From Phycisphaerae bacterium (GTDB lineage Bacteria > Planctomycetota > Phycisphaerae > UBA1845 > Fen-1342), in NCBI GenBank assembly GCA_022072445.1, contig JAJVHV010000006.1, forward strand, positions 1 through 64,000: a stretch of DNA of 64,000 nt, in the 5' to 3' direction. The notes under the pieces were generated by a model. It made no database searches. It was given only the letters and a program-made list of their open reading frames with translations, and was not told where the DNA came from. Positions 27,646-35,222 of the stretch are shown piece by piece. The position numbers and the translations under genes were made by a program. Numbering within the stretch: the first letter of the stretch is position 1; each line of letters begins with the position of its first letter.

Positions 27646-28119
27646 ATGTTTCCGGTGCCTGACGCGAGTCCGACCATCCTGCCGAGCGGCACGACCCTGG
27701 CGCAGGGTCCAGGTTATCTCATTGTCGCGATCCTCATTGTCCTGCTGATCGCTACTGCCGGCACGATCTTCCTGCTCTCGCATCTGATCGGCCCCAGCCG
27801 CAAGGGTGCGATCAAGGACGGCACGTATGAATCGGGCGTCGATCCATTCGGCGACACGCGGCGGCGCTTCAACGTCCGCTTTTACATCGTGGCGATGCTC
27901 TTCCTGCTCTTTGACGTCGAGATTGTGTTCTTCTATCCGTGGGCCACGCTCTTCCCGCGGGTGACGGCGCCGGGCGATACACACGCGGCGTACGCCGCCG
28001 CCATGCGCGACGCGGGCTTCGGGCCGGCCTTTCTGCTCATCGAGATGTTCGTGTTTGTCGCGATTCTGCTGGTCGGGTACGTCTACGCCTGGCGGAAGGG
28101 CGCCTTCCGATGGACCTGA
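27646..28119 (+). CDS. nuoA: NADH-quinone oxidoreductase subunit A
   Basis: The 157-aa protein has three membrane segments (about residues 24-48, 84-106, 126-150) and the NuoA hallmarks [40 protein letters not shown]. NuoA is a membrane subunit of complex I next to the quinone channel. The N-terminal 20 residues and the loop [19 protein letters not shown] are longer than in Escherichia coli. nuoB follows 16 bp on; no other nuo gene is in the window. Confidence 0.96.
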
Positions 28120-28135
28120 CGGCCGGAGCAAGCTC

Positions 28136-28750
28136 ATGACCTCGCCCGCTGCCTCGCGCGGCACTGCGTCCTCAGCCCTCGGCGGGAACGATTTCTCGCT
28201 GACGCGCCTCGACCACGCGGTCGACATGATCCGCAAGTACGGCGTGAACTGGGCCCGCAAGAACAGTCTCTGGCCGATGCCGTTCGCGACCGCCTGCTGC
28301 GGCATCGAACTGATGGCCACCGCCAGCAGCCGCTACGACATCGCCCGCTTCGGCGCCGAAGCGATGCGTTTCAGCCCGCGGCAGTGCGACCTGCTGATCG
28401 TCGCCGGCCGCGTCGTCATCAAGATGCTCCCCGTCCTGCAGCGCATCTACATTCAGATGACCGAGCCCAAGTGGGTCATCTCGATGGGGGCGTGCGCGTC
28501 TTCGGGCGGCGTGTTCGACACTTACGCCGTCGTACAGGGCATCGATCAGTTCCTTCCCGTGGATGTGTACGTACCGGGCTGCCCGCCGCGGCCCGAAACG
28601 CTGCTCGAAGGCGTCATGGCGATTCAGCGGATCGTCGCGAGCGACGGCGTGCGCAGCAGCGCTCAGCGCGGCCGGGGCCTGCAACTGGTCGCGCAGCCAC
28701 CGCGGAGCGTCGAGCTGGGGGCCGGCCTCGAGACGGCGCTGTCGCGCTAA
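28136..28750 (+). CDS. nuoB: NADH-quinone oxidoreductase subunit B
   Basis: The 204-aa protein (start ATG 28136, [13 protein letters not shown]) carries all cluster N2 ligands: [11 protein letters not shown] (the two adjacent Cys), [14 protein letters not shown] and [43 protein letters not shown] is the family core. NuoB holds the last 4Fe-4S cluster that reduces quinone. An extra C-terminal 35 residues ([19 protein letters not shown]) are not needed for the fold. nuoC and later genes do not follow; the next stretch is an RNA gene region, so the operon is split. Confidence 0.97.
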
Positions 28751-28980
28751 GGTCCGCCGGGGCAGCTCCCAATCGCGTTTCTCGTCACGATCGTGCGTCC
28801 GGGCACCGGCCGCCGTCGTTCAGGCGCGGTGGATAACCCTGTGTTGAAAAAAATGTCGCGAAAAACTTGCGCGTCGCCGTTCCGCCGCAACTTGCGTTGA
28901 TGTCGGGAGGTTGCAGGAATTGCGCCCGCCGTAAGCCGCAAATCACAGCCTGTGTGAATGTAGCCAATGCTACTTTGGGG
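28751..28980. other. Intergenic DNA upstream of the large RNA
   Basis: This 230-bp stretch is richer in A+T than its neighbours, with runs such as TTGAAAAAAATGTCGCGAAAAAC near 28850. One GTGGATAAC, which is a single DnaA-box-like word, lies near 28828. No gene or terminator hairpin is evident. It may hold upstream elements of the promoter at 28981. Confidence 0.5.
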
Positions 28981-29009
28981 TTGCTTTTATCGGCAACGTG
29001 GTGTATTCT
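28981..29009 (+). promoter_or_regulatory. Sigma70 promoter of the large RNA
   Basis: TTGCTT (28981-28986) and TATTCT (29004-29009) are spaced by 17 bp. A start 7 nt after the -10 box falls at 29016, exactly where a sequence begins that pairs with the 3' end of the predicted transcript. Confidence 0.7.
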
Positions 29010-29015
29010 TAAATT

Positions 29016-30059
29016 GCGACATGAATGTCGCGTGGCTCGGCACCTCAGCCGATCCCAGCGGCTGCGGTAAGGCAGCCGACCGTCCAAAGAGCGTCGAAAG
29101 CCGGCAGTAATGTGCGGCGCGGCGCGAGGTGAACTCATAGCCCGGACGGCGACGCGCCTGAACGCGTGGGATCAGGCCGGTGCGGAAACCCTACGAAGGT
29201 TGTCCGCTTCGCGCGGTCGGTTCGTCCGACGGCGGCGGACCAGGGCGAGCGCCGATCGACACTCTGAGGCGTGCGCCGTCGGCCCTCCGGGGCTGGCGCG
29301 AAGCGCGTGAGAGGAGAGCCGGCGAAATCCGGCTTGAGGCGTTTGTCCGGCAGACCTTGGAAGGGCGAATCCCATGGGAGCAACCGGCGTCGTCGGCGCT
29401 AATAACGCCGCTGGCGCGAGGGACTCCCGGAAGGGTTAAATCCCAGAAACCGCGGCCCGTCGGGCCGGCCCGTGCGCTTCGGCGTGCGGAAGAAACGACG
29501 GGAGAAACGGTATGTGGGAGCACCCCGGCGGAGACGCCGGTCGGTACCTTCCGGAAGGAGAAAGCTCCGAAGGGCGAATCCCATGAGCGCTGCCGGTATG
29601 AAACAGGACCGGCGCGGGATTCCGGTCGATGTCGCCACGAGGGTAGCCAAACCCTGCAGGCGGCGGGCGCGAGCGGTGCGACGCTCGCAGATGCGGACCG
29701 AGGTCCCTGCATGTGCTGAAGGGAACCAAAGCTCACGAGAGGTGTCGGCGGGCTGCGGCCGGCCGGCTAGGTCGCACGAGGCAAAGCTCCACAGGAGCGC
29801 TGAAGCTGAAGAGAGGCACTGGTCGGCCGCTTAACTGCGTCCGGCGAGCCTGACGACGGAAAACCGCACGGCCGAGGGAATGGCCAACGGCGTAGCGGGA
29901 TCGTCCAAGCGATGCGGGCGATACGACGGCAGGTCCGAACTCTGAACAGCAGGCGAACTCCCGGAGTGTGTGCGTCGGTCAGGATGCTGGCGCACGCCTC
30001 GGCGAACCGAATACTCTGAAGAGCCGCACGAGCCCGACGCGACTCATGTCGCCTTTTTT
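29016..30059 (+). ncRNA. Large structured noncoding RNA candidate (about 1.04 kb)
   Basis: No convincing protein frame exists here: long frames occur on both strands and in several frames at once, all Arg/Pro/Ser-rich. Instead the sequence has RNA signatures. The ends pair: GCGACAT (29016-29022) with ATGTCGC (30046-30052) and GTCGCG (29027-29032) with CGCGAC (30038-30043), closing the molecule. Internal perfect stems include CCGGCG-GAGA-CGCCGG (29525-29540, a GNRA tetraloop), GCGAGCG..CGCTCGC (29669-29688) and AGCCGG..CCGGCT (29317-29334), with UUCG loops near 29219 and 29476. A 17-nt motif GAAGGGCGAATCCCATG recurs at 29360 and 29569, with a variant GGAAGGGTTAAATCCCA near 29429. Loops are purine-rich. 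It matches none of RNase P, tmRNA, SRP or group II intron hallmarks that I could test by eye. Confidence 0.75.
30038..30059 (+). terminator. Rho-independent terminator of the large RNA
   Basis: GCGAC (30039-30043) and GTCGC (30048-30052) form a stem with a TCAT loop, followed by C and six Ts (30054-30059). The same bases can pair with the RNA 5' end, so folding of the whole RNA competes with the terminator hairpin. Confidence 0.75.
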
Positions 30060-30171
30060 GCGCGCCGACAAAGCAAGTCGACGCGCCGCCGACCCCTCCG
30101 CCGCCGCGAGCGGTTCCCCGCCGACCGCAGTTGTTTTGGAAGTGTCTCGGTGCGACCGACCGCGCGGACTG

Positions 30172-33530: not shown

Positions 33531-33636
33531 CGCTTATCAAGAGTAGCTGAGGGAACAGGCCCGACGACGCTACAGCAACCAGACCGGCAACGGTCCAGGT
33601 GCTAACTCCTGCCCGGCACCAGGGAGAGATAACGGT
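33531..33636 (+). promoter_or_regulatory. SAM-I (S-box) riboswitch aptamer
   Basis: The S-box signature is complete in order: CTTATCAAGAG (33533-33543), GCTGAGGGAACAGGCCC, then CAGCAACC, GGTCCAGGTGCTAACTCC and AGAGATAACG at the end, whose GATAA pairs with TTATC to close P1. The element is followed at 33667 by an intrinsic terminator. SAM binding should stabilise P1 and let the terminator form, shutting off the hom-aspartokinase-metB genes downstream. Confidence 0.93.
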
Positions 33637-33695: not shown

Positions 33696-33818
33696 CCACC
33701 CCCAATCCCGCCGCCCGCGGCACCTCCGCCGCGCGAGTGCGCGCCCATTCGGCACGTACGCGTCGCGCCCCGGATATTGCGCGCAAGGGACGGCGGTTCA
33801 TCGACATGGAGATCGTTC

Positions 33819-35222
33819 ATGAACACGCTCAGCCAGTCGCAGATCGTGCCGCGCCTCAAGCGCGCGTTCGCGCGACGTATCAAACCACGTAAACGCTCCG
33901 ACGCCGGACTGCGCGTCGTGCGCATCGGCCTGCTGGGATTCGGCCGCGTCGGGTCGGCGGTGGTCAACACCTGCCGGCGCGCCCGCGACGCCGCCGCGCG
34001 GCGCGGACTGCGCCTCGACGTACGAGCCGTGCTCGTCCGAAACGCACTCGGCCGGCCAGCCCCCGACCCGCGAACATGCCTCACCGCCGACGCGGACGAG
34101 TTCTTCCGCCAGCCGATCGACGTTGTGGTCGAGGCGCTCGGCGGCGTCGAGCCGGCGGCGCGGCTGGTCGAAACGGCGCTGCGCCGCGGGCTGCCGGTGG
34201 TCAGTGCCAACAAGGCGCTGCTCGGCGAGCGCGGGCCGCGGCTGTTCGAGCTGGCCGAGACGCTCGGCGTGCCGCTGTACTGCGAAGCCAGCGTTGTCGC
34301 CGGCGTCCCCTTTCTGGGTGATCTCCGGGCGCGGCCGTTCGCGGCGCGCGTCCGGCGAATCGTCGGCGTGCTGAACGGTACGAGCAACTTCATCCTCTCG
34401 CGGATCGAGCGCGACGCTCTCTCGCTCGAAGCCGCGCTGGCGGACGCCCGGCGGCGCGGGCTGGCCGAGCCCGACTCCGGCCGTGACCTCAGCGGGGCCG
34501 ACGCGGCCGACAAGCTGGCGCTGCTGCTGCTGCACGTCGGCCTCGCCGGCGTCCAGCCCGACGCGATCGAGCGTTCCGGCCTCACCACGCTCGAGCCGCT
34601 CGATATCGCCGCCGCAAAGCGCTTCGGCTACGCGATCCGCCCACTGGCGTTTGCGGAAATCGACGGCACCCACGTCACGGCGTTCGTCGGCCCCGGTCTC
34701 GTGCCACTCAGCCATGCTCTGGCGCATGTCGAGAACGAATCGAACGGCGTCGAGCTGCGCGGACCGGAGATCGGCACCGTCTTTCACAGCGGGCCTGGTG
34801 CCGGGCCCGACGTCACGGCGGCGACGATCCTCGATGACGTGATCGAGATCGCCGCCCATCCGGGCTGGCGCCGCGCGGCGGGCGCGCCGGCAGTCCGGGC
34901 AGCGCCGGGCGCGGGCCGTCGTGGACCCGACCACCCGTTGGATCGCTCGGAGCGGCTTCAGATCGATGCGCCGGCCACGGCATGGTTCGTTCGGACCCGC
35001 CTGGCGGCGCACGCCGACGTCGCGACACTCCGCGAAGTGCTCAACCCGCAGGGCGTGTCGTTGCGCGCGACGGGGTCAATCATGGATCAGCCAGGTGGAC
35101 GCGTTCTCCACGCGCTGACACATCCGTGCCGGCGCGACCGGCTCGAACGTGCGCTCGCGGCGCTGCACGCCGCGACCGGCGGCACGAATCTGGCGCTGCG
35201 TTGCCTGGAGGATCGAGCATGA
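33819..35222 (+). CDS. hom: Homoserine dehydrogenase
   Basis: The 467-aa protein starts at ATG 33819 (MNTLSQSQIV). Residues 45-165 are the NAD(P)-binding Rossmann domain (VRIGLLGFGRVGSAVVNTC). Then come DVVVEALGGVEPAARLV, VVSANKALL, LYCEASVVAGVPFL and the catalytic-region VLNGTSNFILSRI, GLAEPDSGRDLSGADAADKLALL with Lys and Asp residues of the hydride-transfer site. Residues about 385-467 look like an ACT regulatory domain. It reduces aspartate semialdehyde to homoserine for Met and Thr. It is under the SAM riboswitch and overlaps the aspartokinase gene by 4 nt (ATGA). Confidence 0.95.
   Translation: MNTLSQSQIVPRLKRAFARRIKPRKRSDAGLRVVRIGLLGFGRVGSAVVNTCRRARDAAARRGLRLDVRAVLVRNALGRPAPDPRTCLTADADEFFRQPIDVVVEALGGVEPAARLVETALRRGLPVVSANKALLGERGPRLFELAETLGVPLYCEASVVAGVPFLGDLRARPFAARVRRIVGVLNGTSNFILSRIERDALSLEAALADARRRGLAEPDSGRDLSGADAADKLALLLLHVGLAGVQPDAIERSGLTTLEPLDIAAAKRFGYAIRPLAFAEIDGTHVTAFVGPGLVPLSHALAHVENESNGVELRGPEIGTVFHSGPGAGPDVTAATILDDVIEIAAHPGWRRAAGAPAVRAAPGAGRRGPDHPLDRSERLQIDAPATAWFVRTRLAAHADVATLREVLNPQGVSLRATGSIMDQPGGRVLHALTHPCRRDRLERALAALHAATGGTNLALRCLEDRA

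Follow-up and report, generated by a model that had tools for sequence, protein, structure and literature searches.

The window analysed here, a 64,000-nucleotide stretch at the start of contig JAJVHV010000006.1 of a Phycisphaerae bacterium (Planctomycetota), contains at positions 28751-30171 a gap that holds an RNA gene. The whole non-coding RNA runs on the + strand from 29016 to 30059, approximately 1044 nt from the predicted start to the end of the U-tract, and its homologues are 1.05-1.12 kb long with the same ends. The upstream neighbour is nuoB (+) and the downstream neighbour encodes a 707-aa protein (-) without a Pfam match. The neighbours identified in the window include nuoAB, a LolA/DUF620-type gene and an S41 peptidase gene; nuoA and nuoB are adjacent (27646-28750) with no nuoC after them, and the RNA gene comes next. 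The GC content of the RNA (0.67) equals that of the window, so composition alone does not distinguish the gene.

The promoter (28981-29009, + strand) consists of TTGCTT at 28981-28986, a 17-nt spacer and TATTCT at 29004-29009. Of 30 aligned homologues, about 26 have TTG at -35 and TA at -10; the spacer is usually 17 nt, and the hexamers were located 6-7 nt 5′ of a conserved TGCGACG start. By itself the promoter of the window copy was sub-threshold in a single-sequence scan, and a score-only scan chose other hexamers in this copy; it was accepted despite the weak single-sequence score because it is conserved among the homologues. At the opposite end, the 3′ strand of the closing helix P1a (30042-30052) is followed by a U-tract (30054-30059) that is also conserved among the homologues, the two together (30042-30059, + strand) forming a candidate long-range terminator. 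An earlier sequence-only reading of this stretch had proposed the promoter, a start at 29016 and a terminator, and all three were borne out by this conservation.

That reading had also seen no credible gene in the gap, and here too it was confirmed. The window does contain ORFs of 179-181 aa, but across the region of the 179-aa ORF on the + strand, stops interrupted all + frames of 27 homologues, leaving 1 of the 28 with any stop-free + frame, and 347 of the 393 indels among homologues were not multiples of three. The ORFs of the RNA region had no match in Pfam or PHROG. A protein-coding gene was ruled out by the frame disruption, the indel lengths and the missing family match.

An Rfam search of the RNA region gave no family match at the gathering cut-off and noise only at relaxed E-values; in the whole window the matches were two tRNAs and one SAM riboswitch, and nothing else. 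Likewise 18 homologous loci matched no family, with one unrelated sub-threshold match. No covariance match to OLE, GOLLD, ROOL, HEARO or raiA was found in the window, at gathering or relaxed thresholds, or in the 18 homologous loci, and the same was true in the window and these loci for tmRNA, SRP RNA and group I and II introns. At the RNA gene itself neither RNase P RNA nor ribosomal RNA was matched in Rfam; the true RNase P RNA is located elsewhere in the genome (contig C9, 31829-32196, 304.6 bits), and the 16S gene is on contig C17. The earlier statement that the RNA resembles none of RNase P, tmRNA, SRP RNA and group II introns is thus upheld. The RNA would accordingly constitute a new class, every homology comparison to known RNA families that was run having come out negative.

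Two other RNA matches were noted in passing. The SAM riboswitch of the window (33531-33635, +, 71.8 bits) lies shortly upstream of a homoserine-dehydrogenase-like ORF (33777-35222), after which come putative aspartate-kinase-type and cystathionine-gamma-synthase-type ORFs; with these ORFs named by eye, it is taken as an ordinary methionine-pathway switch. Near the RNA gene in locus L120 (2574-2642), int-alpA RNA was matched below threshold (33.9 bits against a cut-off of 35.8).

Consensus fold, arms and a recurrent internal loop

The RNAalifold consensus of 29 full-length homologues contained 263 pairs, 178 of them with compensatory double changes. With ribosum scoring the number increased to 318 pairs, of which 85-98% formed in each sequence. 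Fold-free mutual information pointed to many of these helices as well, the end helix 29018-29022/30046-30050 among them, and many unpaired positions were invariant among the homologues, within a strict architecture.

Arm P5 was evaluated further on 29 loci from outside the class that had not been used to build its model. In these, 97.2% of cells were paired (73.1% in shuffles), with 273 double-change cells (87 in shuffles) and a covariation score of 0.699 (0.251 in shuffles). Within the order, 97% of P5 cells were paired and covariation was strong. The result for P6 outside the class was like that for P5, in a set that includes some weaker secondary matches, and both arms beat all 500 shuffles, controls which ignore phylogeny, as well as all slid registers. 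The outside-class alignments were fitted to the P5 and P6 models, which is a bias in favour, tempered by the slides and the independent mutual information. The sequence-only reading had named three outcomes that would contradict a large structured non-coding RNA: a conserved protein, stems varying without compensatory changes, and a known Rfam family. None was found, as neither Pfam, PHROG nor the frame analysis revealed a protein, Rfam matched nothing at the RNA gene or in the 18 homologous loci, and compensatory changes were present both within the order and outside the class. It is nearly certain that this is a real new structured RNA gene.

A leader-trailer helix closes the molecule, and five arms extend from a six-way junction, all on the + strand. 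The 5′ strand of P1a (29016-29027) pairs with 30042-30052 in 11 consensus pairs, with covariation at 29018/30050, 29021/30047 and 29022/30046, and the 5′ strand of P1b (29034-29039) pairs with 30029-30034 in the consensus fold, also with covariation. Two helices joining the ends had been proposed from the single sequence; both exist and covary. Arm P2 (29040-29183) has a covarying base helix (29040-29044/29179-29183), and its model, R3, was found in the distant families f41, f48 and f39 and partly elsewhere, the arm being lost or diverged in others. P3 (29189-29365) and P4 (29370-29575) are arms of the consensus fold, the latter cross-matched by the P6 and P5 models. P5 (29579-29724) is the most conserved arm and the basis of covariance model R1. 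P6 (29731-30024) shows covariation, and model R2, built on the distal part of this arm (29784-29969), was found just downstream of P5 in 27 of the 29 outside-class loci.

A base pattern CCC-ANG-stem ... stem-GAA-GGG is common to P4, P5 and P6, with a variant in P3. The P5 and distal-P6 models recognise each other's arm and P4 in the same RNA and on the same strand, with best E-values of 2.4e-6 within the order and 4.1e-9 outside. At least three of the arms are thus homologous pseudo-repeats, and from this cross-matching within one RNA we infer that the arms arose by internal duplication. A 17-nt repeat at 29360 and 29569, with a variant near 29429, had been pointed out in the sequence-only reading, which placed GNRA hairpins in the RNA. 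The repeat is real; it does not form isolated GNRA hairpins at these places and is read instead as the arm bases at the central junction, because the outermost arm-base pair (helix 1) covaries (CG 12, GC 9, UA 6).

A 3x3 internal loop recurs at about ten places; its outer positions are purine mispairs and its middle is free. The outer mispairs switch between A.A and G.G, with A.G intermediates nearly absent. At the base of P3 (29193-29195 with 29359-29361) they covary in this manner, and 29195/29359 was G.G in 22 sequences, A.A in 18 and other combinations in 2. The loop at the base of P4 (29374-29376 with 29569-29571) reads A.A / N.N / G.G in 29 of 29, and that at the base of P5 (29583-29585 with 29718-29720) shows A.A to G.G and G.G to A.A exchanges. 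Within P5 (29637-29639 with 29656-29658) the counts were A.A 18, G.G 20 and C.A 4 (n = 42), and the exchange recurs in an independent set. P6 has one such loop at its base (29735-29737 with 30018-30020) and two further within the arm: 29809-29811 with 29944-29946 (A.A 19 and G.G 7 in the outside-class set) and 29868-29870 with 29892-29894 (A.A 24 and G.G 5, against G.G 17 and A.A 7 outside the class). The A.A/G.G exchange as such therefore recurs in the outside-class set. Homopurine mispairs covarying between A.A and G.G in a 3x3 loop were also seen at 29791-29964.

In a blind scan of all column pairs, the A.A/G.G exchange was located mainly at the 3x3 loops; the exceptions, 29439, 29586 and 29738, vary in concert in five sequences that probably form one clade. 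We know of no named motif with this 3x3-loop signature, and an open-access search of the literature on homopurine covariation returned nothing relevant, being too narrow to claim absence. The loop is possibly a general RNA motif. A different exchange was noticed in a hairpin loop, where the pair 29598/29607 alternates between A.G and G.A (15 vs 23 of 42), which suggests a sheared-type mispair closing the loop.

Distribution, inheritance and genomic context

By BLASTN, a check that the sequence-only reading had proposed, the RNA gene was identified in 44 of 101 genomes from the window's order at 66-73% identity. Each of these carried it at a single site, split or marginal pieces excepted. Model R2 found the RNA in 45 of the same 101 genomes, nearly the same relatives. 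Among the good-quality genomes of the order it was present in 28 of 63, and with approximately half of them lacking it, the RNA is not an essential housekeeping RNA like rRNA. In a class-wide sample all 40 matches were within the window's own order, and in a phylum-wide sample the covariance model detected it in 32 further genomes from 11 Planctomycetota families outside the class. The distribution is thus wide but patchy. Three large genomes of families f67 and f46 (G449, G548 and G575) harboured two copies each, compared with the usual one.

A cross-phylum scan of 84,980 species used one motif of 19 fixed bases, which misses most of the outside-class members within the phylum; its named records were uncultured Phycisphaerae, Phycisphaerales and other Planctomycetota MAGs. 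A match labelled 'Leptolyngbya' (L047) had no model match and was taken as chance.

The tree of the P5 arm clusters strongly by family, with 24 label changes against 46 in shuffles. The window copy is divergent within its family, with a long branch and 86% of the consensus pairs, and has kept the ends, the arms and the promoter. An old and mostly vertical inheritance with many losses would account for the distribution and the clustering by family.

Twenty neighbourhoods of 15 kb contained no generally shared neighbour gene. The only recurrent neighbour that stood out, limited to part of one order, was phoH2, which encodes PIN and PhoH domains. Of 32 loci checked, 14 had it upstream of the RNA and in the same orientation; 13 of these, in genomes from families f1, f7 and f8, have a gap of 0.2-0.7 kb, and the remaining locus has a larger one. 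In the thirteen loci with phoH2 directly upstream, the other neighbours were scrambled. PIN-PhoH proteins are of a type that acts on RNA. The adjacency may reflect an inherited gene order or a processing partner; phoH2 is not beside the window copy, and in some genomes it is present but not adjacent. A Ro60/TROVE partner was considered and rejected, being present in 3 of 101 genomes only and with no link to the presence of the RNA.

The RNA ends and rRNA-like leaders

Within the window's order, the U-tract directly adjoins the 3′ strand of P1a. The P1 duplex between the two ends had a median energy of -31.9 kcal/mol, compared with -7.2 kcal/mol for a local hairpin beside the U-tract, and was by far the stronger in 27 of 27 order homologues; these energies are for isolated strands and ignore competition and kinetics. 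The window copy also has a short local hairpin (30039-30052). The sequence-only reading had mentioned bases common to the closing helix and the terminator hairpin, and the observation proved correct and more important than stated, P1 being dominant in all 27 homologues. As far as these modelled energies go, the closing helix of the window's order probably serves as terminator as well.

Families f84, f94 and others are organised differently. Their P1 strands pair, with other sequences, a separate terminator hairpin follows P1, and a TCTTTGA(A/C)A box lies before or next to the P1 5′ strand. By a strict pattern, the boxA-like box was present in the 5′ leader of 14 of the 29 outside-class loci, compared with 0.3% of shuffled leaders; it was not seen before the RNA in the window's own order. 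Among the genomes in which both leaders were readable, three (G525, G447 and G417) have the same box before the RNA and before 16S rRNA, 110-300 nt upstream, whereas in two others (G433 and G457) no box was found within 600 nt of 16S. The 16S leaders of several members of the window's order also carry it.

In E. coli pre-16S the order is boxA, leader strand, body and trailer strand (PMC10250234). Several distant families resemble such a pre-rRNA unit in having boxA, a 5′ strand, the body, a 3′ strand and a terminator (PMC10250234). The RNA is however not an rRNA, with 16S located elsewhere and no Rfam rRNA match, and the window's order differs by having no boxA and a closing helix that abuts the U-tract.

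Proposed function and comparison with known large RNAs

RNAs of such size and complexity are very rare, and those that are understood are ribozymes, RNP cores or RNA nanocages. The cell biology of Planctomycetota is odd, and an open-access search of the literature on RNAs of Planctomycetes returned nothing relevant. Here the structure was established by comparison, and from it we infer the function of a scaffold. Most likely it is a molecular machine or scaffold, built of RNA and not described before, and we lean, with confidence a little better than even, towards the full statement that it is a stable structural RNA of Planctomycetota working as an RNP or an RNA scaffold.

The sequence of events may be depicted as follows. 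RNA polymerase would make the RNA as a free-standing transcript. In the families with boxA, NusB/S10-type antitermination would help the polymerase to finish the untranslated RNA, as for rRNA; this step would not apply to the window's order, since boxA is absent there. On emergence the 3′ end would close onto the 5′ end, and in the window's order this pairing would be the stem needed for termination, so that release would require the two ends to meet. Once finished, the star of semi-equivalent arms could serve as the scaffold, either an RNP core or a homo-oligomeric RNA particle, with the repeated 3x3 loops and the conserved loops as binding or docking sites. A more far-reaching version is put forward only tentatively: a phylum-level RNA machine with no relation to any known class, enlarged by internal duplication of a single arm, with a possibly new 3x3 A.A/G.G module, transcribed in an rRNA-like manner in several lineages, acting as a ribosome-like RNP or RNA-only particle, and with its release gated by the closure of the ends.

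As a large ribozyme, the RNA would have an active site, formed by the junction together with the invariant unpaired bases, that works on the RNA itself or on another molecule. Size, invariant unpaired positions and strict architecture do resemble those of known large ribozymes, an argument likewise put forward for OLE RNA (PMC11332333). Yet group I and II introns and RNase P gave no match even at relaxed thresholds, the genome has its RNase P RNA elsewhere, and an RNA of repeated, equivalent arms looks more like a scaffold than like a molecule with a single active site; we regard a ribozyme as unlikely, if worth keeping in mind. A trans-acting regulator of RNA polymerase, ribosomes or a protein, or an RNA that sequesters protein at its repeated loops, would fit a single-copy stand-alone gene with its own promoter, about ten similar loops that could be protein sites, and the upstream, co-oriented phoH2 gene of 14 of the 32 loci. 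6S RNA, which acts on RNA polymerase, is a regulator of this kind. The present RNA is far larger and more elaborate than known regulators, and phoH2 is non-adjacent in some genomes and absent beside the window copy, which makes a regulator quite unlikely.

The patchy distribution and variable neighbours might suggest that the RNA belongs to a mobile or phage-derived element, which is the case for some other large RNAs. Such a link is very improbable here: viral contigs had no match in an exact-motif scan, plasmids and phages had none by BLASTN, some copies are located on multi-Mb chromosomal contigs, the window copy is surrounded by nuoAB, the LolA/DUF620-type gene and the S41 peptidase gene, and the P5-arm tree follows families. 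The ORFs of 179-181 aa might suggest an overlooked protein gene or the long leader of an mRNA; both can practically be dismissed, given the broken frames, indels that ignore codons, the missing family match, a U-tract that ends the RNA and flanking genes that differ among homologues.

The semi-equivalent arms, the repeated A.A/G.G loop and a 1-kb-spanning helix that is possibly a terminator are testable features of the RNA. It presents a new function to be discovered and, for work on RNA 3D motifs, a natural data set.

Group II introns, which include circularly permuted ones (PMC8637638), are likewise large RNAs with many branching helices, but had no Rfam match here even under relaxed conditions; the planctomycete RNA has a discrete promoter and terminator, and there is no reverse-transcriptase gene among the identified neighbours in the window. 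The raiA-motif or ModT RNA is a conserved structured non-coding RNA with a cellular and not mobile distribution (PMC11706538). Conserved structure and cellular distribution are shared with the RNA described here, which differs in architecture and size and does not match it in Rfam. GOLLD and ROOL, which form RNA-only nanocages (PMC12286853), are similarly large and ornate, whereas the planctomycete RNA has no Rfam match, no viral or plasmid link that was found and a mostly vertical inheritance. OLE RNA forms a membrane-associated RNP and RNA dimers (PMC12286853, PMC10898510), and like the present RNA is large and highly structured with an unclear biochemical role. OLE is however about 600 nt long and occurs mostly in Bacillota, compared with 1.04 kb, a six-way junction, repeated arms and no Rfam match for the planctomycete RNA. 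Being long and non-coding, with a compact covarying structure, the RNA would take its place among the large ornate bacterial non-coding RNAs, which are a loose kind and not a homologous family.
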